Source of the DNA: Deltaproteobacteria bacterium
GTDB taxonomy: Bacteria > Desulfobacterota > Desulfobulbia > Desulfobulbales > Desulfurivibrionaceae
Direction of reading: 5' to 3'
DNA: 64,000 nt
Assembly (NCBI GenBank): GCA_026388695.1
Contig: JAPLJH010000019.1
Span: 1 to 64,000, forward strand
The translations under genes were made by a program, and so were the position numbers. Of this stretch, positions 1,025 to 45,901 are shown piece by piece. The notes beneath the pieces were generated by a model. It saw only the letters and a program-made list of their open reading frames with translations. It did not search any database and was not told where the DNA came from. Position 1 is the stretch's first letter. Every line of letters starts with the position of its first letter.

Positions 1025-2092
1025 TTAGAGCTGTACCACCCAACCATAGGGATCTTCCTTAGCCCCATACTGGATGGCCTGTATTTCATCAAAGAGCTTT
1101 TGGGACAAGGCGCCGGTTTCCCCATTGTTGATCAGGCAGTCCCGGCCCTGGTAGTGCAGGGAGCCCACCGGCGAGATCACTGCGGCAGTACCGGTCCCGA
1201 AAATCTCCTTGAGCGAGCCGTTTTCCTGGGCCGCCAGAACCTCGTCAATGGAAATCCTGCGCTCCACCACGGTAAGGCCCCAGCCCTTGGCCATCTGGAT
1301 CACCGAGTCGCGGGTAACCCCAGGCAGGATGCTGCCGCCCAACGGCGGGGTGATGATCTCGTCGCCGATCACAAAGAAGATATTCATGGTGCCGACTTCT
1401 TCGATGTAGCGCCGCTCTGCGGCATCGAGCCAGAGCACCTGGGTAAAGCCTTTCTTCTTGGCTTCCTCCGCCGCCATGATGCTGGCCGCGTAGTTGCCCG
1501 CCGCCTTGATATGGCCTACCCCTCCGGGCACGGCGCGGACATAGGCATCGGTGACATAGATCTTGACCGGGTTGAAGCCTTCCGGGTAGTAGGCGCCCAC
1601 CGGACTCATGATGACAAAAAACAGATATTCCTTGGCTGGCCGCACACCCAGAGCCGCCTCGGTGGAGATCATGGTGGGGCGAATGTAGAGGGTTGCACCT
1701 TGGGCCGAGGGAATCCAGTCCTGATCGAGACGAAGCAGTTCCTTGAGCGCGGCGAGCACATCCTCCACCGGCAATTGCGGCATACAGAGCCGCGCCGCCG
1801 AGATGTTCATCCGCTCGATATTGGCCGCCGGACGAAAGAGATAGATGCCGCCGTCCTTACCCCGGTAGGCCTTCATCCCCTCAAAAATGGCCTGGCCGTA
1901 ATGGAAAACCATGGCCGCTGGGTCCAGAGAAAAATTCCGGTATGGCTGGATCGTCAGGTCACGCCAACCCTGGCCCTCGGTGTAGGGCATGACCAGCATA
2001 TGATCGGTAAAATATTTGCCAAAACCCAGGGCGTTTTGATCCGGCTTGGGCTTTGCTTCGTTTTCCGTAACTTTTTCCAGATGAAATTCCAT
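1025..2092 (-). CDS. ilvE: Branched-chain amino acid aminotransferase
   Basis: MEFHLEKVTENEAKPKPDQNALGFGKYFTDHMLVMPYTEGQGWRD...; class IV aminotransferase (EVGTMNIFFV, LPGVTRDSV motifs). Upstream Met in the ORF is unlikely to be the start. Confidence 0.93.
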   Translation of the reverse strand: MEFHLEKVTENEAKPKPDQNALGFGKYFTDHMLVMPYTEGQGWRDLTIQPYRNFSLDPAAMVFHYGQAIFEGMKAYRGKDGGIYLFRPAANIERMNISAARLCMPQLPVEDVLAALKELLRLDQDWIPSAQGATLYIRPTMISTEAALGVRPAKEYLFFVIMSPVGAYYPEGFNPVKIYVTDAYVRAVPGGVGHIKAAGNYAASIMAAEEAKKKGFTQVLWLDAAERRYIEEVGTMNIFFVIGDEIITPPLGGSILPGVTRDSVIQMAKGWGLTVVERRISIDEVLAAQENGSLKEIFGTGTAAVISPVGSLHYQGRDCLINNGETGALSQKLFDEIQAIQYGAKEDPYGWVVQL

Positions 2093-2310
2093 GCTCTCTT
2101 CCTCAGACAAAAATGCTCCATTTCGACGCGGCATCGCCGTGTTTCCCGGCCTTCCAAGCCCCTGTCGGATGAAAAACCAAAATCAAGGACAACAAATATA
2201 AATGATAATCCGCTTCGCTGAAACAACTTATTGATGCCGCCACGGTAACCGAGTGCAGAAAAAGGTCACAGCGGGGATGGCCAGGAGGAGTGCTGGGGGA
2301 AAAAGATGGT

Positions 2311-2384
2311 CGGGGCGAGAGGATTCGAACCTCCGGCCTCCTGCTCCCAAGGCAGGCGCGCTAACCAGACTGCGCTACGCCCCG
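2311..2384 (-). tRNA. tRNA-Pro (anticodon TGG)
   Basis: Reverse strand CGGGGCG...CCTGC CTTGGGA GCAGG...GGTTCGAATCC...CGCCCCG folds as a cloverleaf; anticodon loop CTTGGGA. Confidence 0.95.
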
Positions 2385-2616
2385 ACGGACGATAATGGGA
2401 AGTTGCTTTATTAGCACTCTGCCCGTGGCCGGTCAAGAGAATTGTTTTTGGAATGGGGGGATTTTGTCTGCTAAACGATTGTACAGAAACGCATCCCTAA
2501 AGGCACAAGGAGCTGTAACGAAAGGGACACAGAAATAGTTATTTCGCAACAGCTCCTAAAAATGTTGACGCCCCGATACGCACTTGCTATATTGCCCGCG
2601 TTCAGTTGAATAGCAT

Positions 2617-2692
2617 TCCTGGGTAGCTCAGTCGGTAGAGCAGGTGACTGTTAATCACCCTGTCGGGGGTTCGAATCCCTCCCCGGGAGCCA
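2617..2692 (+). tRNA. tRNA-Asn (anticodon GTT), CCA encoded
   Basis: TCCTGGG TA GCTC...GGTGA CTGTTAA TCACC...GGGGGTTCGAATCCCTC CCCGGGA G CCA. Confidence 0.95.
2670..2687 (+). repeat. att core, tRNA-proximal copy
   Basis: TTCGAATCCCTCCCCGGG within tRNA-Asn; repeated with one mismatch at 5753-5770. Confidence 0.8.
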
Positions 2693-2726
2693 AAAAGTAA
2701 TCCGGCACCGTCCGTTAAGATACATT

Positions 2727-2760
2727 AAGCCCACGCCCCATAAAGGTTGTGGGCTTTTTT
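2727..2760 (+). terminator. Rho-independent terminator
   Basis: AAGCCCAC...GTGGGCTT stem followed by TTTT, shortly downstream of tRNA-Asn. Confidence 0.7.
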
Positions 2761-2870
2761 GCGTCCGGCAAGGTCCAAGGAAAAACGTTGCGATACGGGT
2801 AATGACATGGGTAAAATCATGGGTAAAGGTCTTACCCCATTAAATCTTTTACCCATATCGAGGTTTACCC

Positions 2871-4105
2871 ATGCCAAAAACCGCCAAGAATCTGCTATCA
2901 GCAGCTTGCCGTCAAGGGGGCGAAGCCGGAAAGACAAGGCCTACAAGCTGCGGGATGGAGCGGGCCTCTTCCTGGTCATTGAGCCCAGCGGAAAAAAATG
3001 GTGGAAGCTGCGGGTAATCTTTGCCAAAAAAGAAACCTTTTTTTCCTTTGGCGAATATCCCTCGGTCACACTCTCGCAGGCAAGGGTAGAACGCGACAAG
3101 GCCAACAGCCAGATTGCAAACAGCATTGACCCAGCCACCGTCCGCAAGGTAGCGAAAGCCACCCTGTCAGGAGAAGGGAGCTTTGGGGCTGTGGCCCGTG
3201 AATGGGCACGCCCGGTTTTTGCCGAAATGGTCCGTGGTTCACGCCACATCAATCATAGCCCGCCTTGAGAAAGACGTTTTTCCGTACATCGGTGCACGGC
3301 CCATTGGCGAAATCACCCCGCCGGAACTGCTGGCCGTCCTTCGCCGCATTGAATCACGGACGCTGGAAACAGCACACAGGATCAAGATTGTTTTCGGGCA
3401 GGTATGTCGATATGCTGTAGCAACCGGACACGCCACCAGCGACCCGGTAAGCGCCTTGCGCGGCGCACTTCTCCGGTCCAGCCAAAGCACATGGCAGCCC
3501 CTACCGATCCAAAGGCAGTGGCCCCCTTACTTCGAATACTGGCCGGGTATCAGGGGTCTTTCGTGGTGGCCTGCGCTCTCCGTCTTGCCACGCTGGTCTT
3601 TGTCCGACCCGGCGAATTACGTCAAGCCGAATGGGAGACGATTGATCTGGACAATGCCGAATGGCGTTACCTTGTTTTCAAGACCAAGACAGAACACCTT
3701 GTTCCGCTCTCAAGTCAGGCTGTGGCGATCCTGCGAGAGCTGCACCCGCTTACAGGGAAAGGCCGGTATGTGTTTCCCTCTTCCCGGTCGGCTTCGCGCC
3801 CAATGAGCAACAATACCGTCAATGCGGCCATGCGGCGCATGGGAATCGACACACAGAACGAACTGACCGGGCACGGCTTCCGGGCAATGGCCCGCACTAT
3901 CCTTGACGAGGTACTGGACTTCCGTCCTGATTTCATAGAACACCAGTTGGCCCATGCTGTGCGCGATCCCTTGGGCAGAGCATACAACCGGACGGCGCAT
4001 CTGCCAGAGCGGCGAAAGATGATGCAGACTTGGGCAGATTACCTTGAACAACTGGCGAAGAACGGGGAGAATAAAATTATTCCCTTGCGAATCGGCAGTA
4101 GATAA
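2871..4105 (+). pseudogene. P4-type tyrosine recombinase/integrase, multiply frameshifted
   Basis: Starts MPKTAKNLLSAAC; N-terminal domain (DKAYKLRDGAGLFLVIEPSGKKWWKLR), core-binding domain (ARLEKDVFPYIGARPIGEITPPELLAVLRRIE) and catalytic domain (VRPGELRQAEW, GHGFRAMARTIL, RAYNRTAHLPERRKMMQTWADYL) lie in different frames (ORFs 2747-3268, 3183-3806, 3404-4105). Confidence 0.88.
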
Positions 4106-4300
4106 CGGCCATTTTAAGGGGCCGGGCTACAAAAAATTCGTCCTTTCAGGCACATTAATTTCTAAAACCAGCAAATCGACTCTGGACGCCTGTATTGATG
4201 CGGGCTAAGCAGGAATACGGTCTACTTTTGAAGGGGGGCTGAGTAGTTCGCCCCCCATTGCCAACTCGGCAAAATCTCGAGACGGGACGATACGGCCATT

Positions 4301-10240: not shown

Positions 10241-12378
10241 CCTTCCACCACCTGTGCTGTACTTGCGCCAAGTTGCAATTGGTTCAAGTGTGCATAAATT
10301 CCGTTCGGTATCGCAAGCAATTCGTCATGCGAGCCTTCCTCAACAATTTGCCCCCGATCCATAACAAAGATGCGGTTGGCATCCCGCACCGCAGAAAGAC
10401 GATGGGCAATAATCAGCACCGTCCTACCCGCACAAATTTTGCGCATATTCTCCTGGATGATTCTTTCCGATTCATAGTCCAGGGCACTGGTGGCTTCGTC
10501 AAAGATCAGGATCCGCGGGTTGGAGATGAGCGCCCGGGCAATGGCGATCCTTTGCCGTTGCCCGCCGGAGAGCCCGGTGCCATGCTCTCCCACCTTGGAA
10601 TCATACCCTTCCGGCAACTCGCAGATGAACTCATGCGCGCCGGCCAGTTTCGCTGCTTCGATAATAACCTCAATGGGCAAGGCGGGATTGGCCAAGGCGA
10701 TGTTGTCGCGGATGGTGCCGGTGAAAAGCACATTTTCCTGCAAAACTATACCCAATTGGTGGCGCAGCGAGGTGGTATCGATAATGGAAATATCCTGGCC
10801 ATCAATGAGAACCCGGCCTCGATCCGGGACATACAACCGTTGCATGAGCCGGGTCAGGGTGCTCTTGCCTGAGCCGGAGCGGCCGACAATGCCGATCACT
10901 TCACCGGGGGCGATCTTGAGATTGACCTCCCGAATGACGTCTGGATTATCGGGCCGGTAGCGGAAGGAGACCTGGTCGAACTCGATGGCGCCTTCCAACC
11001 GGGGAATCCTCGTTTTTTGGCCCACTACTTCCATCGGTGCGTTGAGGATGTCCCCCAGGCGCTCCATGGAAACCCCTACCTGCTGGAAACTATTCCATAA
11101 CTGGGCAATGCGCAAAATTGGCTCGGTGAGCCGACCCGAGAGCATGTTAAAGGCTATCAACTGCCCCACCGTCAAATTACCCTCCACAACGAGACCTGCA
11201 CCAACCCAGAGAAGGGCCACGGTCACAAGCTTACTCACCATGGTTACCCCACTATTGGCAATGGTGCCGACGTTGGTTGCGTCCAACCCTGCGGAGACAT
11301 AGGTGGAGAGTTGTTTTTCCCAGTTATCGATCCAGCGCGGTTCCACGGCCATAGATTTGACCGTGTCGATGCCACTGATCGATTCCACCAGGAAGGCCTG
11401 ATTTTTAGCGCCGGTGTCGAATTTTTCTTTCAAGCGGGAGCGCAGGATCGGCGTAATTCCCACGGCTAAAAGGACATAGAGGGGGATGGAGATTACGACG
11501 ATGAGGGTAAGCAGCTTGCTGTACCAGAGCATGACGAAGATAAAGACAAACGAGAAGAACAGATCCAGGACCAGGGTGAGTGCATTGCCGGTGAGGAAGG
11601 AGCGGATATTTTCCAGCTCCCGGATGCGGGCCACCGAGTCACCAACCCGCCGGGCCTGAAAATAGGCAATCGGCAGGGCGAGCAGATGTCGAAAGAGTCT
11701 TGCCCCGAGTTCGACATCGATCTTGCTGCTGGTTCTGGCAAAAACCCAGGTACGAATGGCCGTAAGAATGACTTCAAAGAGGGTTGCCGCTAATAGCCCA
11801 ATGGCAATGACATTGAGTGTTTTCATGGCATGGTTGACCAAAACCTTGTCCATTACCACCTGAAAGGCCAGGGGGGTCGCCAGGCCGATGAGCTGGAGGA
11901 CAAAGGAGATCACCAGGATTTCGCCAAACAGTTTCCGGTATTTGACGATGGCCGGAATAAACCAGCTGAAGTCGAACTTGGTGAGGTCTCTCAGGTAGGT
12001 TGCCTTGGAAGTACAGAAAATAAATTGCCCGGACCATTGCTTCATGAATTCCTGCAGGTCCAAGACCTGGGGGGTAGGGTTGCCGGGCTGCTGGGTGATC
12101 ATTTTGGGCCGAGTTTTATCGCCGCCTTCATAGCCGAACTTGACGGCGATAAAATAATTTCCCTGTTTATCGATGGCAATGGCCGGCAGAGGCGCGCGGT
12201 CCAGACGTTCTTCCTCCTGCTCAACGACCTTGGCTGTCATACCAAGGCGCTTAGCAGCCAAGAGAATGGTTTCCGTCGTAAAAGGCTTTAGCCCGAACTC
12301 ATGCCGCAATTGCGCTTCATCAGCGGCAATGCCATGGTGCCTGGCAATCATCAACAACGACAGTAGTCCTAAATCCAT
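10237..12378 (-). CDS. Type I secretion permease/ATPase (HlyB-like, N-terminal C39-like domain lacking the catalytic Cys)
   Basis: MDLGLLSLLMIARHHGIAADEAQLRHEFG...; ABC TM domain; Walker A GRSGSGKST, signature LSGGQRQRIAIARAL, Walker B ILIFDEATSALD. Confidence 0.94.
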   Translation of the reverse strand: MDLGLLSLLMIARHHGIAADEAQLRHEFGLKPFTTETILLAAKRLGMTAKVVEQEEERLDRAPLPAIAIDKQGNYFIAVKFGYEGGDKTRPKMITQQPGNPTPQVLDLQEFMKQWSGQFIFCTSKATYLRDLTKFDFSWFIPAIVKYRKLFGEILVISFVLQLIGLATPLAFQVVMDKVLVNHAMKTLNVIAIGLLAATLFEVILTAIRTWVFARTSSKIDVELGARLFRHLLALPIAYFQARRVGDSVARIRELENIRSFLTGNALTLVLDLFFSFVFIFVMLWYSKLLTLIVVISIPLYVLLAVGITPILRSRLKEKFDTGAKNQAFLVESISGIDTVKSMAVEPRWIDNWEKQLSTYVSAGLDATNVGTIANSGVTMVSKLVTVALLWVGAGLVVEGNLTVGQLIAFNMLSGRLTEPILRIAQLWNSFQQVGVSMERLGDILNAPMEVVGQKTRIPRLEGAIEFDQVSFRYRPDNPDVIREVNLKIAPGEVIGIVGRSGSGKSTLTRLMQRLYVPDRGRVLIDGQDISIIDTTSLRHQLGIVLQENVLFTGTIRDNIALANPALPIEVIIEAAKLAGAHEFICELPEGYDSKVGEHGTGLSGGQRQRIAIARALISNPRILIFDEATSALDYESERIIQENMRKICAGRTVLIIAHRLSAVRDANRIFVMDRGQIVEEGSHDELLAIPNGIYAHLNQLQLGASTAQVVEG

Positions 12379-27723: not shown

Positions 27724-29007
27724 TTAGGAGCGGATTTTTTTAAGCAACGAGGTTGTGGAGTAATTTTCCACCAGGGGAATGGAGAGCACCCGGCCGCCTG
27801 CACCCAGCACCTCCGGGGCGCCAACGATTTTCTCCACCGGCCAATCGCCGCCCTTGACCAGCACCTCCGGCATCAAGGTGGTGATCAACCTGTGGGGCGT
27901 TTCCTCGGCAAAAATCACCACATGGTCCACACATCCTAGGGCGGCAATAATTCTGGCCCGGCTCTGCTCATGGTTCACCGGCCGATCATCCCCCTTGCCC
28001 AAAGCCCGTACCGAGGCATCACTGTTGACCCCGACCACCAAGCAATCGCCTTCCCGGCGGGCCTGCTCCAGATAGGTGACATGCCCCTGGTGCAGGATAT
28101 CGAAACAGCCGTTGGTGAACACCACCTTGCGGCCCACCGCCCGGTAGCGGGCGGTCAGGTCGGCCAGCTCCTCAAGCTCAACAATCTTGTCCTCATCGGC
28201 AAACCGGTACGGCGCAGGCCCCACCGTGTTGAAGCGCTGCCGCAGCTCCTGCATCCGGGCCGGCTCGATCCCGACCCACGCCTCCCCCGGTTTCGATCCA
28301 ACCTCGGCCAAGACCGTGCCGTCCGGCCCGATGATCAGGGAGTGGCCGCCAAACTCGGTTTTCCCCGTAACGCCGCAGCGGTTGCAGGCCACCACGAAAA
28401 TCTGATTTTCGATGGCCCGCGCCATGGCCAGAGTCCGCCACTGCTCCCGCCGGGCCTCGGGCCACTGGGCACTTATCACCAGCAAGTCAGCGCCTTGGGC
28501 TGCTTGACTCTTGGCCAGCTCGGGGAAGCGAAGATCGTAGCACACCAGCCCGGCCACCAGACCAAGCCCGGTATCCACCGGCTGAGGATTATCCCCAGGG
28601 GTAAAATGCCGATCCTCATCCATGGGCGCGAACAACTGCTGCTTGCGGATCGACCCGCAAACCCCATCCGGCCCGACAATGTACAGGGTATTATAGATGA
28701 CGCCCCCCACCTCGGTGAGCACCTCTTCGGGCAGGGAGCCGGCCAGATAAATGCCGTACTGCCCGGCCAGCCGTTGCATCTCCTCCAACACCTCCACGGT
28801 CTGTAAAGCGAAATGCTGGAGCCGCTCATAGGCAAAGCCGCAGCTCCACAGCTCGGGCAGAACGATGATGCCAGGCCCCTTGGGCGCCAGACGGGCCAAG
28901 CCAGCTTGCACCGCAACGAGATTCGCCGCAGGATCGGCCAGCTTCACGTCAAACTGCAAAAACCCGGCATGATACCGGGCAGGTGTGGTGTCGGTGTTGT
29001 TTTTCAT
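27724..29007 (-). CDS. Fusion: nitrilase-family carbon-nitrogen hydrolase + RfaE2/HldE-C nucleotidyltransferase
   Basis: N-terminal nitrilase superfamily (GPGIIVLPELWSCGF, GLVCYDLRFPELA); C-terminal VVFTNGCFDILHQGHVTYLEQARREGDCLVVGVNSDASVRALGKGDDRPVN...LVENYSTTSLLKKIRS. Confidence 0.92.
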   Translation of the reverse strand: MKNNTDTTPARYHAGFLQFDVKLADPAANLVAVQAGLARLAPKGPGIIVLPELWSCGFAYERLQHFALQTVEVLEEMQRLAGQYGIYLAGSLPEEVLTEVGGVIYNTLYIVGPDGVCGSIRKQQLFAPMDEDRHFTPGDNPQPVDTGLGLVAGLVCYDLRFPELAKSQAAQGADLLVISAQWPEARREQWRTLAMARAIENQIFVVACNRCGVTGKTEFGGHSLIIGPDGTVLAEVGSKPGEAWVGIEPARMQELRQRFNTVGPAPYRFADEDKIVELEELADLTARYRAVGRKVVFTNGCFDILHQGHVTYLEQARREGDCLVVGVNSDASVRALGKGDDRPVNHEQSRARIIAALGCVDHVVIFAEETPHRLITTLMPEVLVKGGDWPVEKIVGAPEVLGAGGRVLSIPLVENYSTTSLLKKIRS

Positions 29008-29159
29008 GGGGTCAGAATGACCCGGTCTGGTGGTTTTGTCAATAATGAGGTGCTCCCCCCTGTAAAGGGCCTGCCAATTTTCAATTGCAACCCGTCCGGA
29101 ATTCTGTCAAGCTCTCTAACACATGAATGCTTAATCCTCTACTTTTTATGGATCCCGAT

Positions 29160-30581
29160 ATGGCCAAACCTGCTTTTTTGTACAATCTACGCCCAGAAAC
29201 ATATAATCCCACTGTCAGCCAGCATCTTTCACCAAAAGGCTACCTATTAAGCCCTGCATATGCGACGCGCAAGGCCAAAGAGCTTGCGCAGCAAGTAAGA
29301 GCCCAAGAGTATCGCCTTATGGCCGATAACGGAAATTTCTCCCATATCCAGAAACTTCGCGCTCAGTTTGAGACAACCGCGCAATCCTTACTCCTTGAAG
29401 TCGCCAAGGTCGAGCATCAGTTAGGCCGCTCTTTACGAGCCTCCGACGCATTCGATTCATTGCAAAACAAATATCGTGCGCTTGCCACGGATGTGCAAAA
29501 CGCCGCGAAACAGCTTGTTGGCAATGGAGAAGAAAATTTACAGGCTCAACTTGAACTCAACCCAACATCGCTTATCGGCGTTGAGGACATCACCCTCGGA
29601 GCCTGGCTAAGCCTCAACATCGAACCCGCTTATTTGGATTTTCCTCCGGCCACCTACCGTGCCTTAAACCGCTCGGTTGCAGAACGAGCGGTCAAACGGA
29701 AAAAGCAACTTCCCGAAGCCCTCGCCCAGGGATACTACCCGGTTGCCTCGGCCAGTTCTTACAACACAGCCTTCGATGTCGGCACGGAGTTTGCCCGCAA
29801 AGGCCTGGAGAAAATCTCCATGGGTTTCGGAGCGTTCATGGCCGATGATAACTGGACCGATCATGTTGAGATCGGCACCCGCACCATTGCGCTCAAAGAA
29901 CGATTTCCCAACCGCTACATTCGGACAGCCGCCGTTGCCAAGGGTTTTTGGGATGGATATATGCGTCAAGCTGGCCACCCTCCAAAGGCCTTTCATTTTC
30001 TAGGACTCGGGGCGCTGATCATGTTGCCGCTCGTGACTCTGGCGGCCTGGGACACGCCAGATCTTACCTTTGACGCAACGAGCCCTATCAAAGACGCGCT
30101 GCAAGGAGGGACATTGTACGTTGCAAAACCCGCATATCTAAAATTGCGCACGCAAGGCATCGCCTATCGACTTGCTTCTGATCCGACGGCTGAGTGGGAT
30201 TGCCCGTGCCCCTTCTGCTGTGAATTCATCGCCAACCACCCGTTTCAGCGGGAGCTCGGTTTTAAATGGCTCAAAAAAACGGGTGCGCGGGAGGTTCGCT
30301 CCCAGGATCTTCGCTCCACTGGGGCGCTGTTTTCCGCTTTTCCGCTGCTGTCCGAGCCAGGTGCGGGAACGCTTCGCAAAGCTGTGGATCAAGCACGGAT
30401 CGGACACAATCATTGGGTTTTGGAAGAGATTATGACAGACCTCGGGAAGGCCACGGACCGCCAAGATTTTCAGGCAAGAGTCGAAACCATCCTAAAGCGC
30501 TACGAAGAAAATACCAAGGCGGACCGCTACGGCCGCGCCATCCGCTTCGCTTATAACCTTATCACCTCTCTGGAAGAATGA
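29160..30581 (+). CDS. TGT/DpdA-like (tRNA-guanine transglycosylase superfamily) protein
   Basis: Ordered motifs matching TGT: DNGNF (cf. DSGGF), FHFLGLG (cf. HYLMGVG), TFDATSPIKDAL.GG (cf. FDCVLPTRxxRxG), CPCPFC (CxCxxC zinc site), GHNHWVLEEIMTDL (cf. EHNIAFYQQLMQKI). Alternative starts 29127/29148. Confidence 0.75.
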   Translation: MAKPAFLYNLRPETYNPTVSQHLSPKGYLLSPAYATRKAKELAQQVRAQEYRLMADNGNFSHIQKLRAQFETTAQSLLLEVAKVEHQLGRSLRASDAFDSLQNKYRALATDVQNAAKQLVGNGEENLQAQLELNPTSLIGVEDITLGAWLSLNIEPAYLDFPPATYRALNRSVAERAVKRKKQLPEALAQGYYPVASASSYNTAFDVGTEFARKGLEKISMGFGAFMADDNWTDHVEIGTRTIALKERFPNRYIRTAAVAKGFWDGYMRQAGHPPKAFHFLGLGALIMLPLVTLAAWDTPDLTFDATSPIKDALQGGTLYVAKPAYLKLRTQGIAYRLASDPTAEWDCPCPFCCEFIANHPFQRELGFKWLKKTGAREVRSQDLRSTGALFSAFPLLSEPGAGTLRKAVDQARIGHNHWVLEEIMTDLGKATDRQDFQARVETILKRYEENTKADRYGRAIRFAYNLITSLEE

Positions 30582-30734
30582 CTCCAGAAGGGTGTGCAAC
30601 ACTAAACAGTACAAGCCGTGAAAGCGTCATTCAACACAACGAGGGAGGAACAAGCCACCATTCGCAAACACCATCTAAATCTGAAGTCGAACAACTAGTA
30701 CAATCTTTCACTATTTATCGGGGGGGTCTATTCA

Positions 30735-32087
30735 ATGACACTTATCAATGTTGCAGGACGCCGCGCCGAACGCTTGCGTGCATATCAAGCCGCAGCGCAA
30801 GCCGTTCGGGCGGCCAACAAAACGATCAAAAATATGGAGGATGAGGAAATTGCCGCGCCTCTTGTACAGGCAGCCTCCACTGGCAAATGGAGTACGAAGG
30901 TACTTTCATCGATTAAAGATCAACAAACAGCACTGCGAGTTTTGTCCCATGGCGAGCTTGCCCAGGCATCGGAACAACTGGAAAATGTCTGGCGCTTTCT
31001 GCCTGATCTCGGCCTTGCGCGGGCTGTACCCTTTTCCAAAACTATTTCGAAAGAAACCGTAGAAACGCAGCTGCGAGAAAAGGGACTTGATCCAAAAATC
31101 TCTAAATTTGTTTTTGGTGCGCGGAGCAAAAAACTCCCTGGCATCGACACAGGGCTACAAACCGCGACGAACACTTGCAAGGACAACTGGGAAGCGATTA
31201 TCCGACGGGATTCCCAGCTAAGCCTTGCCCTAGCGGTGACTGGCTTCAATGCGGCAGTTTCAGGAAGCCAACCAAGCACCCAACCAGAAATTTCGGAGAC
31301 CTTATCAAAAGAAATTCTGGAAAATGTCCGCAAGGTCTTAGGTACCGAAGGCCCGGCCGGAGCGGCAAACACCGCAGAATGGGGCCTCCTCCAGATTTCC
31401 AAAGAACTCTCTACCAAAGCCATTCCTGCTGCGGCACAGCTGTTCCGCAGCGAATACCCCGATGCGAAAACCGCTGCTGCTGCCGTGAAAATATCCAGCC
31501 ATCTCCGCGAGTTATTGTGGCTTTCCGCCACACTCAAGCTTATTTCCTGGAAATGCGCCTGGCCGCAATCCGGCGAAGCTGCTGCTCTTGTCAAGGCGGC
31601 AAGCTTTCCCCTCGCCAAAAAAGAAACCGCAACGCCCAGAGTTACCGTGGCTGCAATTGCCAAAAACACTTGCGGCTCAGGCAAAGAAGTGGAGGTTCTT
31701 GCCATTGTCGAAAAGGTTGAGATCCGCCACGAAACAAAAAATAAGCCGGTTACCACCTTCACCTTGCGCGAGCCGGGCAAGCAAGACCTGGTCGTGGCCA
31801 CTGTCCCTGGGTTTAAAGCCGATGTTACAGGGGCGGTTGCAGGCACAGCCGTGCTGCTGACTGGCTCCTGTAAGGCTGGCGCTGCGGGAAAACCTGGCAC
31901 GCTTCAGGTTACCCGCGAGTCCATCATGAAACAACGCGACGTGTCCTTTACGGATTATCTCAAGGCCGAAACCTATCGCGTCTATTCCGCTGTCCCGCAT
32001 GCGCTGTGCATCCAGAGCAGTTGGATCACAGGTGTCGACGGACCACTCAACCCATTTCGATACGGCGTTACCGCGCAAGGGAGATAA
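30735..32087 (+). CDS. Uncharacterised protein with C-terminal OB-fold-like segment
   Basis: 450-aa ORF, upstream GGGGGG SD; KEVEVLAIVEKVEIRHETKNKPVTTFTLREPGKQDLVVATVPGFKADVTGAVAGTAVLLTGSCKAG...GTLQVTRESI resembles an OB barrel. Confidence 0.65.
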   Translation: MTLINVAGRRAERLRAYQAAAQAVRAANKTIKNMEDEEIAAPLVQAASTGKWSTKVLSSIKDQQTALRVLSHGELAQASEQLENVWRFLPDLGLARAVPFSKTISKETVETQLREKGLDPKISKFVFGARSKKLPGIDTGLQTATNTCKDNWEAIIRRDSQLSLALAVTGFNAAVSGSQPSTQPEISETLSKEILENVRKVLGTEGPAGAANTAEWGLLQISKELSTKAIPAAAQLFRSEYPDAKTAAAAVKISSHLRELLWLSATLKLISWKCAWPQSGEAAALVKAASFPLAKKETATPRVTVAAIAKNTCGSGKEVEVLAIVEKVEIRHETKNKPVTTFTLREPGKQDLVVATVPGFKADVTGAVAGTAVLLTGSCKAGAAGKPGTLQVTRESIMKQRDVSFTDYLKAETYRVYSAVPHALCIQSSWITGVDGPLNPFRYGVTAQGR

Positions 32088-32090
32088 CAT

Positions 32091-32591
32091 ATGCCAGCCG
32101 ATTGCGGAGTTCTTTTTGGTATTCGCGAAGGAATCGTGGACAAAATACAAGATATTAACAGCTCTATTGAAGGCATAACCCAAAATATCATAGGGGCGGA
32201 GATCGCTCTGGCCGGCGCAGAAGCAGGCGCAGCTGTCTGCCTGTTCATGGGGCCGACTCCTGCTGCGGCCGCATGCGGAGCAGCGGTTGTCATTGCAGTT
32301 GCTGCGGCAGCCGCAGCGGTTGCATATTATCAAAGCGAGCTTGAAAAGGCTGAAGAAGCCCTTCAGGAAGCACAACATGCGCTCGACGAAGTCGATGGTC
32401 TGCTTTCCCATTGTCAGGCGCTTCAGAGCTGGCAACAGGAAGCAGCCGACGCGCTGGCAAGTGAAGCTCCGACTGCTGACGGAATTCCCGACCCGCCTGA
32501 TGCCGATGACTCCTCTGCGCTTGACGAAGCAGAAGAAGCATTGGCGGAACTCGAAGCTCTTGGCGAGGACCGCGACGACTCCTACGCATAA
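32091..32591 (+). CDS. Small protein with Ala-rich transmembrane segment flanked by helical/acidic regions
   Basis: GAEIALAGAEAGAAVCLFMGPTPAAAACGAAVVIAVAAAAAAVAYY hydrophobic stretch, then coiled-coil-like ELEKAEEALQEAQHALDEVDGLL and an acidic tail; starts 4 nt after the previous stop. Confidence 0.65.
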   Translation: MPADCGVLFGIREGIVDKIQDINSSIEGITQNIIGAEIALAGAEAGAAVCLFMGPTPAAAACGAAVVIAVAAAAAAVAYYQSELEKAEEALQEAQHALDEVDGLLSHCQALQSWQQEAADALASEAPTADGIPDPPDADDSSALDEAEEALAELEALGEDRDDSYA

Positions 32592-32613
32592 ACAGATTGC
32601 TAATCTCAGCCTT

Positions 32614-32656
32614 ACGACCGAATCAACGGGTGGCCGCTGTTGATTCGGTCGTTTTT
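32614..32656 (+). terminator. Rho-independent terminator of the TGT-like cassette
   Basis: ACGACCGAATCAAC-(GGGTGGCCGCT)-GTTGATTCGGTCGT followed by TTTT; perfect 14-bp stem. Confidence 0.88.
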
Positions 32657-32788
32657 CACAGACGTATACGATGTTTTCAGACTGTTTTAAAAAACAGGTC
32701 GCGTTTTCCTGCGGCGTCAAAGAGAACAAGACATCCTTGTGGTCAATAACAATATCTTGCGCCGTCTCCGCTGCTATGCCTTTGATTT

Positions 32789-32975
32789 TAACGATGCCCA
32801 GATGGGTGCGCTCTTCGGCTTGGCCAAGCCAGCCTGCACCGAAGCGAGATTCGCCGCAGAATCCCGACCAGCTTTACGTCAAACTGGAGAAACCCGGCCT
32901 GATAGAGGGTGGTGTCGGTGGTATTTTTCATGGGATCATGAATGACCGGGTATGCTGCTTTTGTCAATATGGGGT
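32789..32975 (-). pseudogene. Degraded duplicate of the nitrilase-rfaE2 5' end and its upstream region
   Basis: Reverse strand MKNTTDTTLYQAGFLQFDVKL... versus MKNNTDTTPARYHAGFLQFDVKL...; nucleotide similarity to about 28865-29052 on both sides of the start codon. Confidence 0.85.
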
Positions 32976-33133: not shown

Positions 33134-33628
33134 ATGAAAACCTCTATCAAATATATGCTCTTGACTTGCGTTGTTGTGTTCACCGTGGGGTGTACTGCGA
33201 ACTATCGCCCTGCAGATGGTGCGCCTGTTGCAAAACTGCTATTCACAACGAATAAAGGGCCGGGAATGTTCGTTGGACTTTGGACGATTCAAACGGAAAA
33301 ATGCCCCACCATAAGTAAGGTTTGTCTACTTACCGATGGTCAGACTAACAAGAAAGATGCCTTGGTCGAAATTGACGCGGGAAAACCTTTTGTAGTTAAG
33401 GCACAACTAGTGAATATCCTCACTGGAACGAAATGCAACGATGCCGGCGTGTTTACCCCAATGCCTGGGGCAACGTATCGTCTAAAACACACAATCACCC
33501 CCCAGGGGTGTTGGCTCGAATTATTTAAGGGAGACTCAGCGATAAAAGACCCTTCATTCAGGCAACTCGTCAGTGTCGAAGAAAAAGATATATGCTCTGA
33601 ATTTATTACAATGAAACCGCGCTCCTAA
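33134..33628 (+). CDS. Hypothetical lipoprotein
   Basis: MKTSIKYMLLTCVVVFTVGCTANYRP: signal with lipobox-like VGC. Confidence 0.6.
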   Translation: MKTSIKYMLLTCVVVFTVGCTANYRPADGAPVAKLLFTTNKGPGMFVGLWTIQTEKCPTISKVCLLTDGQTNKKDALVEIDAGKPFVVKAQLVNILTGTKCNDAGVFTPMPGATYRLKHTITPQGCWLELFKGDSAIKDPSFRQLVSVEEKDICSEFITMKPRS

Positions 33629-33670
33629 CCAAGCTTTGTTGATATAATATTGAGTGAAAGGAAGAGAAAA

Positions 33671-34390
33671 ATGACTAAACCAATTAAGATATTTATAGCT
33701 CTTTCGATAGGGCTTCTTTGTCTTTGCGGCAACGCCTTAGGGGCAGGATTCACTATCGATAAAAACACCTGGAAGGCCGTTAGCCCTGATGAAAAAATAT
33801 TTGGTTACTTCTACGGTCCAGCATACTACCTCCTGCACCAGACTGGTGATTCAGTAATCCTTCACTTGGATAAAAGAGATCCTATACTTTCTGATGATTT
33901 TCGAAATATTATTACTCTTTATCTAGAAAGTAGCTCAGCGGCAAACATGAAAAAGTTACTTGAGCAACAAAAAGGCCATAATACCGTATTAAAACAAGCA
34001 CCGATGTCCGTAATTTTCGCACAGCAGTACAAAACTGTTGGGACACCAATTAAAGATAATCCGAACGTTCCTGATTTCATTGTTTTCCTAACGAATTCGG
34101 ATAAAATTGTTACCGTTGAATTTTTAATGTCCCCGGACAAAATGAGTGTTTTTACTGTTGCATCTGGGAACAAAAAATATTCGCCAGCATTCTTATTTCG
34201 AGCAGATGCGATCAAATATCAAGATAAATTGCTGAAGGAAACCGGACAGAAATTTGATCGCATCGAATTAGATATAGATACCTTTGTTAATAAATTTATG
34301 CGCCCGAATTCAAAAACAGACGTCCCCTTTGCGGTGTTTGGAGAAAATGCGGAAAACTTAATACCTGCTTTTGAGAAGCAGTATCACTAA
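33671..34390 (+). CDS. Hypothetical secreted protein
   Basis: MTKPIKIFIALSIGLLCLCGNALGAGF signal peptide; no recognised domain. Confidence 0.6.
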   Translation: MTKPIKIFIALSIGLLCLCGNALGAGFTIDKNTWKAVSPDEKIFGYFYGPAYYLLHQTGDSVILHLDKRDPILSDDFRNIITLYLESSSAANMKKLLEQQKGHNTVLKQAPMSVIFAQQYKTVGTPIKDNPNVPDFIVFLTNSDKIVTVEFLMSPDKMSVFTVASGNKKYSPAFLFRADAIKYQDKLLKETGQKFDRIELDIDTFVNKFMRPNSKTDVPFAVFGENAENLIPAFEKQYH

Positions 34391-34664: not shown

Positions 34665-35651
34665 ATGAACATTCCAGCCCAGTCCGGCCAGGGACCAGTC
34701 GCAAGCAACGACTACCAAGCCCTTTATTCCGCCCCATCCGGCAAGAGCACCTTCGAGCAGACCCTTGCCCAGGTCCAGTCGACCTCTTTCTCCCTGACCA
34801 CCGCGGAAGGCGATCAGGTCACCCTCTCGGGCCTGAGCCAAAATTACCAATACACCCAGGCAGTCGGCTGGTTCAATCCCGCCTCCTCTGGGGTGAATTA
34901 TGCCAGCAGCTCCACAAGCGCCCAAGCCATGGGCATCTCGGTGCATGGCGACCTCAATGAGCAGGAGCTGGCCGACATCACTAAGCTGGTGGGCGAACTG
35001 ACCTCCATTGCCTCCACCTTTTTTTCCGGCGATCAGCAGGGTGCCATAACCAGGGCCATGGATTTCGGCCAAATGTCCATGGGCTCGGTCTCCTCGCTAT
35101 CCGCCTCATTCAGCAGACAAACCGTTGCCCAGACCCAGATCACCAGCTACTCGCCCCTGCCGGCCATGGCAGATCTCAAAGACCTGAAGCTCAAGGATAT
35201 CTACGATACATTGGGAACCAACACGAGCGGAGAGCCGGACTACGCCACCGTGCTTGAAGCGCGCTGGCAGCAGATCCTCAAGGCCCTGGATGAAATGAAA
35301 GCGAAAGAGCTGGATGGGCTATTTGCCCGGAGAATGGACCCTAAGCCGTTACCGGCCACAGGGGTGAATGCCGAAACTCCTGCCCTGCCAGTCGTCCCGC
35401 CCGAGGAGCGTGCGGCCCGAAAGATGGTGTCCCACATGGAGCAGCTCCTCACCGACCACCCGCAACTGACCCCCTTTGCCAAAGCGCTAGGCGCCACCGC
35501 CATGGATACAGCCGCACGTCAAGCCGAACAGGGTCTGCCGGACACCGCCAGGGCGCTGGGCGATCTGAAAACCGCCTTTCTCAACCAACTGCACCAGTGG
35601 TTTCTGCCGTCGGAACCACCGACAACCAGCAGACCGGGGACGGCAGTATAA
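34665..35651 (+). CDS. Hypothetical protein
   Basis: 328-aa ORF, Ser/Thr-rich N-terminus (STFEQTLAQVQSTSFSLTTAEGDQVTLSGLSQ); coding composition. Confidence 0.6.
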   Translation: MNIPAQSGQGPVASNDYQALYSAPSGKSTFEQTLAQVQSTSFSLTTAEGDQVTLSGLSQNYQYTQAVGWFNPASSGVNYASSSTSAQAMGISVHGDLNEQELADITKLVGELTSIASTFFSGDQQGAITRAMDFGQMSMGSVSSLSASFSRQTVAQTQITSYSPLPAMADLKDLKLKDIYDTLGTNTSGEPDYATVLEARWQQILKALDEMKAKELDGLFARRMDPKPLPATGVNAETPALPVVPPEERAARKMVSHMEQLLTDHPQLTPFAKALGATAMDTAARQAEQGLPDTARALGDLKTAFLNQLHQWFLPSEPPTTSRPGTAV

Positions 35652-45620: not shown

Positions 45621-45699
45621 AAAGAGGTTGCCCGCAGACGCAGGACTTGCTAAACACTCTTTTTCGCCAAGCACGACACTTCGGCGAAAAAGAAAAACA

Positions 45700-45885
45700 T
45701 AACCAGACTGGTGCCTGCCCCTTCCTCGGAAGCGGCGGGAGAATAGGGAAGACGGTGTAATTCCGTCACGTTGGGCCAACGCTGTAAGCGGGGACCGACG
45801 CCGCAAATGCCACTGCCGCAAGGTGGGAAGGCGCGGCGAAGGGTGGAGCCGCAAGTCAGAAGACCTGCCAGCCTGGAAAAAAAGG
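45700..45885 (+). promoter_or_regulatory. Cobalamin (B12) riboswitch
   Basis: Conserved elements in order: GGGAAGACGGTGTAATTCCGTCACG, GCTGTAAGCGG, GCCGCAAATGCCACTG, GTGGGAAGGCG, GCCGCAAGTCAGAAGACCTGCC (B12 box). Boundaries approximate. Confidence 0.9.
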
Positions 45886-45901
45886 AACCATCTGTCCAGA
45901 T

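Follow-up and report, generated by a model that had tools for sequence, protein, structure and literature searches.

A three-gene module around a TGT-fold enzyme in a Desulfurivibrionaceae genome and in actinobacteria: a candidate conflict system

The DNA examined here, referred to as the window, is a stretch of 64,000 nucleotides (positions 1 to 64,000, forward strand) of contig JAPLJH010000019.1 from the Deltaproteobacteria bacterium assembly GCA_026388695.1 (Desulfurivibrionaceae). It contains a block of three open reading frames (ORFs 1 to 3), in which a predicted barrel enzyme of the tRNA-guanine transglycosylase (TGT) superfamily is linked to a protein with an oligonucleotide-binding (OB) fold and to a small cysteine-bearing protein. 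The three-gene set is more than a chance association, since homologous sets occur in five further genomes, and a comparison of two of these shows purifying selection on each gene. We propose that the three genes form a mobile module whose most likely role is in conflict, against phages or otherwise, by acting on guanine in nucleic acid; we would give this proposal about an even chance. The block is made up as follows.

29160 to 30581, plus strand: ORF1, 473 aa, probable TGT-superfamily (base-exchange) enzyme of a new clade
30735 to 32087, plus strand: ORF2, 450 aa, helical N-terminal region plus predicted OB fold
32091 to 32591, plus strand: ORF3, 166 aa, small cysteine-bearing helical protein
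32614 to 32652, plus strand: intrinsic terminator closing the block, recognised by its folding energy and a T run downstream

A sequence-only reading of the window had already described three ORFs on one strand, with 3 nt between ORF2 and ORF3, and this layout was confirmed; AAGGGAG precedes the ORF3 ATG. An in-frame ATG is present at 29127, upstream of ORF1, and homologue alignment favours the start at 29160. The terminator that had been placed after ORF3 proved to be real, as its stem arms (32614-32629/32637-32652) fold with -26.6 kcal/mol (z = -4.7), a value equalled by none of 200 shuffles, and a T run follows the stem; it was absent from the output of a simple consensus scan.

Linkage and distribution of the three genes

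A genome scan recovered three homologues of ORF1, all actinobacterial and with 36-49% identity, in a Propionibacteriales metagenome-assembled genome (MAG), Cellulomonas endophytica and Micromonospora chaiyaphumensis. Searching the families of the latter two species added one member each, bringing the loci to at least six (the window and five actinobacterial ones) in two phyla, with an incomplete family census. In all six, ORF1 was found together with ORF2 and ORF3, an association that the sequence-only reading had proposed from a single locus. Three arrangements were seen: the order 1-2-3 is shared by the window and both cellulomonad loci, the order 2-3-1 by the Propionibacteriales MAG and M. 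chaiyaphumensis, and in the relative of M. chaiyaphumensis (locus L065) the 2-3 pair lies opposite to ORF1. In this last locus a transposase-like fragment (10501-11059) separates ORF1 from the ORF2/ORF3 pair, and it may have split an original operon. As the linkage persists while the order changes, the three genes likely form a functional unit. Furthermore, comparison of the two cellulomonad copies gave ratios of nonsynonymous to synonymous substitution (dN/dS) of about 0.17 for ORF1, 0.28 for ORF2 and 0.40 for ORF3, indicating purifying selection.

The module is rare. None of 96 genomes related to the window's host at ranks from genus to order held a relative, 395 genomes of the host's phylum held no copy except that of the host itself, and among 396 genomes sampled from the Cellulomonas phylum the only positive was the query's own source. 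Such a patchy distribution fits horizontal transfer. A phage or plasmid origin was considered and is not demonstrated, given that relatives of ORF1 were undetected in phages, plasmids and viral contigs; plasmids also held no relative of an ORF2 homologue. At other loci than the window's the surroundings look mobile or defence-like: a transposase-associated RNA adjoins the module at L005, and the neighbouring genes include an SMC-like ATPase and DNA methylases. Upstream of the L005 module (1786-4284, plus strand) lies a gene for an SMC/RecF-like AAA ATPase that weakly matches many models of defence ATPases.

ORF1 and its two partner proteins

ORF1 was matched by no model of Pfam, NCBIfam, PADLOC or PHROGs, and none of the four family members scanned matched PF01702 or the NCBIfam TGT models. 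An AlphaFold2 model built from a four-member alignment nevertheless gave an alpha/beta (TIM-type) barrel of moderate confidence (pLDDT 71.6, pTM 0.72). When this model was compared with the PDB by Foldseek, the top match was 7UI4, the DNA preQ0 insertase DpdA (E 9.9e-3, probability 0.90), and in a viral library it was R9TGF0 of Vibrio phage nt-1 (E 4.2e-4, probability 1.00). We take R9TGF0 to be the DpdA2 of nt-1, an assignment made by phage and length, without a match of accessions; in the nt-1 genome a 464-aa gene of matching length has GTP cyclohydrolase I on one side and QueC on the other, and according to Hutinet et al. (PMC6884629) the genes that flank the preQ0 cluster include the DpdA2 of nt-1.

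Profile comparison pointed the same way. With hhalign, a six-member ORF1 profile scored 37.4 against a TGT profile (pairwise E 5e-4) and 31.3 against DpdA2, both above the controls, of which the best reached 25.8 among 76 unrelated decoy proteins and 29.8 among 300 column-shuffled profiles. For comparison, the DpdA1 family, which is experimentally established, reached no more than 21.4 with this TGT profile. The rise above the decoys was seen only when the six-member profile was set against multi-sequence profiles; the first four-member alignment gave nothing significant against single TGT or DpdA sequences, and a PDB sequence search with the ORF1 profile returned noise only. Two independent lines, the match of the predicted fold and the profile comparison, therefore indicate that ORF1 belongs to the TGT superfamily. 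Motifs of this superfamily were located in ORF1 as follows.

29325 to 29333, plus strand: DNG of ADNGNF, counterpart of TDSGGFQ in TGT, which carries the catalytic Asp; invariant in all six members
30072 to 30074, plus strand: codon of the FDATSP Asp, which corresponds to the nucleophile Asp of TGT (FDCVMPT); invariant in all six
30201 to 30218, plus strand: CPCPFC with three zinc-site Cys of TGT type; Cys invariant in all six
30405 to 30416, plus strand: HNHW with the zinc-site His, counterpart of the TGT IHN motif; invariant in all six

The hhalign register pairs FHFLGLG with RYLMGVG, FDATSP with FDCVMP, CPCPFC with CDCYTC and GHNHW with IHNLHY, and an earlier alignment had paired ADNGNF with TDSGGF of the host's own TGT. 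ORF1 is thus comparable to bacterial TGT (PF01702) in its barrel fold and in having the D-x-G, the nucleophile motif and the CxCxxC...H zinc site in register. It differs in that the family, of 431-473 aa, has a helical insertion after the first motif, a spacing of about 62 residues from the last Cys to the His, against about 25 in TGT, no Pfam match, and linkage to ORF2 and ORF3. The zinc motif (CPCPFC or CPCQFC...HNHW), recognised from sequence only in six of six members, is common to TGT and the ORF1 family and is missing from the phage DpdA1 and DpdA2 compared, which places ORF1 nearer to TGT than to these phage enzymes. The earlier description of ORF1 as TGT/DpdA-like therefore stands for the barrel, whose best structural matches are DpdA proteins, and for the TGT-superfamily profile, which exceeded all decoys, and does not extend to membership of the DpdA family; ORF1 is DpdA-like in fold only.

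ORF2 had been noted as OB-like, and modelling agrees with this over one stretch.

31632 to 31934, plus strand: predicted OB-fold domain of ORF2 (residues 300-400 approximately), the only stretch of the protein where pLDDT is mostly 70-85

The N-terminal region gave no confident model. An ORF2 homologue is present in six of six loci, with leave-one-out profile E values of 1.6e-8 to 2.1e-6 over the C-terminal 128-145 columns. Foldseek matched the OB domain with the MCM N-domain, PriB, SSB and CST OB folds. These proteins are mostly DNA-binding; OB folds bind RNA as well. It could accordingly be asked whether ORF1 modifies tRNA or another RNA, with ORF2 as its RNA-binding subunit and no part in defence, and the TGT-type zinc site, common to the tRNA-acting TGT, would suit such a role. 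Rarity, patchiness, a variable-site location and the fast divergence of ORF2 and ORF3 are a misfit for a housekeeping function, however, and a canonical TGT is already encoded in the genome of the window's host; we consider RNA modification improbable.

ORF3 consists of a helix, a hydrophobic segment (42-80) and a second helix with an acidic tail, and has Cys at positions 5, 50, 62 and 108. The hydrophobic segment, with a mean hydropathy of 2.4 over 19 residues, is present in five of the six members; the L065 version lacks it, so that membrane insertion is not assignable as a common function of ORF3. A small helical Cys-bearing gene directly follows the ORF2 homologue in six of six loci; sequence support is significant in only three of these (the window, L005 and L003), and the remaining assignments are based on place, size and cysteine pattern. 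Weak family matches of ORF3 to TrbK, LeoBC and tape-measure proteins were dismissed as composition effects.

The insertion site and its cargo

The site in which the block lies is bordered by the following features.

27724 to 29007, minus strand: nitrilase-rfaE2 fusion gene, intact and native, left border of the insertion site; matched in 17 of 17 genus genomes
32722 to 32969: right junction, a remnant of the 5' end of a DUF1456 gene fused to a diverged copy of the 5' end of the nitrilase gene
34665 to 35651, plus strand: g34665, native gene, right border of the variable site; present in 8 of 13 neighbourhoods

The sequence-only reading had put the block between an intact nitrilase-rfaE2 gene and a decayed copy of its 5' end. 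Both were found, the copy at 32822-32969 with 82% identity over 154 columns (E 3e-40), and the right junction turned out to be more rearranged than described, as a DUF1456 5'-end remnant is joined to it (DNA 32722-32797, 78%, E 2e-13; protein about 32739-32830). The nitrilase gene has near full-length matches throughout the genus, with 81-90% identity outside its own genome, and g34665 is 51-90% identical in the related neighbourhoods fetched that have it. As the genus natively carries the genes on either side, mis-binning does not explain the block; the host genome itself is incomplete (114 contigs, 87% complete). The GC content is 0.53 in the block, 0.56 in the window and 0.62 in the nitrilase gene.

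The rearranged junction, together with the transposase-like fragment inside one actinobacterial copy, might be taken to mean that the block is a mobile-element remnant, or cargo with no selected function in this host. Against this, the three genes are intact in the window, as are the terminator and the gene coupling, and the one close pair of copies shows purifying selection, which makes this reading very improbable.

Within the genus the interval from the nitrilase gene to g34665 differs in content and length, and in two relatives it holds genes that match antiphage models. At the L049 nitrilase site there is an NsnA/PD-T4-2_A-like gene (E 1e-63 and 1e-43), and at that of L054 there are PD-Lambda-5-like A and B genes (E 2e-17 and 5e-96). 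On the minus strand of L049 (6536-7612 and 5872-6543) the GmrSD_N gene matching NsnA and PD-T4-2_A is accompanied by a HEPN-like neighbour, and at L054 (1871-4902) the A and B genes, B being a D12 adenine methylase, are accompanied by a third gene with no Pfam or PADLOC match. Where modification or defence had been suggested for the block, this same-site cargo in related genomes supports the defence half of the suggestion, as positional evidence and not as proof.

To the right of the block, at window positions 33134-34390, lie two ORFs for an apparent lipoprotein and a signal-peptide-bearing protein, which had no Pfam match and no hits in 13 related neighbourhoods and may be further variable cargo. 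A strong cobalamin riboswitch (110 bits) was seen at 45692-45886 of the window, plus strand.

Base supply, known systems and proposed role

A check of the host genome for queC, as the sequence-only reading had advised, showed that QueC is encoded outside the window, as is the canonical TGT. None of the five actinobacterial hosts has a canonical TGT. A QueC scan of four of them gave no match in two, a sub-threshold match in one and a divergent QueC-like gene in one. This divergent gene stands alone (L078, 4521-5309, genome G849), about 234 kb from the module, in a cellulomonad with no TGT. The Vut_1/YhhQ importer family was found neither in the three actinobacterial hosts with no QueC above the cut-off nor in the window's host, and no preQ1 riboswitch was found near any locus. 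Strong QueC is rare throughout the Cellulomonas family (2 of 222 above 250 bits), so that the lack of QueC is background and not a selected loss. In the actinobacterial hosts lacking QueC the enzyme thus has no known de novo supply of preQ0. Since the actinobacterial hosts have no canonical TGT and mostly no QueC, an ordinary role of the dpd kind or in queuosine formation is unlikely in all five.

TGT-family enzymes in defence are already known from Dpd, type IV CBASS (cyclic oligonucleotide-based antiphage signalling system) and BREX-Related Capture. DpdA and DpdA2 insert 7-deazaguanine into DNA, and a similar self-marking could be imagined here, with ORF1 placing a 7-deazaguanine such as preQ0 in the host's DNA and ORF2 helping to handle that DNA. 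These enzymes are the best fold matches of ORF1 (PDB 7UI4 and Vibrio phage nt-1), the OB fold of ORF2 resembles DNA-binding OB folds, and QueC is present in the window's host. However, the zinc site sets ORF1 apart from the phage DpdAs, most hosts of the module have no preQ0 synthesis, the three actinobacteria just mentioned lack both QueC above the cut-off and the importer, and the module has neither a restriction gene nor a dpd partner. In agreement with the earlier view that this is not a standard dpd island, no dpdB-K partner or preQ0 synthesis gene was recognised beside the module at the loci examined. Self-marking of the Dpd type is on these grounds unlikely, if worth keeping in mind.

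In type IV CBASS it was established that Cap10 is a TGT-family enzyme which binds the deazaguanylated N-terminus of a partner protein (PMC11996544). The module resembles this system in pairing a TGT-family enzyme with partner genes, and because Cap10, of the same fold, binds a nucleobase-modified protein, a protein target is conceivable for ORF1 as well, with ORF3 or ORF2 as the partner; a small gene, ORF3, indeed always adjoins ORF2. Yet the module has three genes, with no CD-NTase, effector or Cap9/QueC-like gene recognised beside any of the six loci, PADLOC gave no match, and the ORF3 N-termini (MPADC, MPCT, MSDDC) differ from the MGGS/MGTS acceptor motif described for CBASS/Qat. Cap10 was also neither among the ORF1 fold matches listed nor among its sequence matches, and we regard an action on protein as quite improbable. 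A TGT has likewise been recruited to a defence context in BREX-Related Capture systems (PMC12839542). Those systems differ from the six loci, where none of the genes examined was recognised as PglZ, HerA, DUF6079, DUF4007 or GNAT. The three-gene set and its zinc-retaining clade outside PF01702 were found in no library or literature searched.

Several points weigh against a conflict module built on TGT chemistry. Taken by itself, the ORF1-TGT match is weak (pairwise E 5e-4, with a Foldseek TM of about 0.3), and the base-binding Gln of TGT (GIVQGG) has no clear counterpart in ORF1, where this motif is unrecognisable. PADLOC models match neither ORF1 nor ORF2, and ORF3 gives weak composition-type matches only. 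Known defence-type cargo occupies the site in only 2 of the 12 genus neighbourhoods listed, the cargo of other relatives being a diguanylate cyclase, a PAS protein or DUF1456; the site is thus variable in a general way, with defence genes as one part of its cargo.

Nonetheless, base exchange or removal at guanine is the most likely chemistry, because the Asp and zinc-site motifs are retained; nucleic acid is the most likely substrate, because of the OB partner; and conflict is the most likely purpose, because of the rarity, mobility and site of the module. In the mechanism that we propose, the conserved Asp of ORF1 would attack the glycosidic carbon of a guanine nucleotide and release guanine, and the covalent intermediate would be resolved by another base or by water. 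The OB domain of ORF2 might bind single-stranded or distorted nucleic acid and deliver the substrate to ORF1, and ORF3 could be a partner or effector, perhaps attached to the membrane. Taken further, the module might represent a new type of immunity. A TGT-fold enzyme with a zinc site would be directed by the OB protein to attack guanine, or the modified guanine of a phage, in invading nucleic acid with no 7-deazaguanine supply from the host; it would swap in ordinary bases, strip a protective base or leave covalent or abasic lesions, and ORF3 would be the effector. This bolder version is doubtful, though possible. A conflict role for the module would add to tRNA modification, DNA marking and Cap10 immunity a further, separately built use of the TGT fold, marked by a conserved set of three genes that lacks any described partner gene and by hosts mostly without canonical TGT. 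It would also raise the question of what a base-exchange enzyme might do where the cell has no known base for it to exchange.

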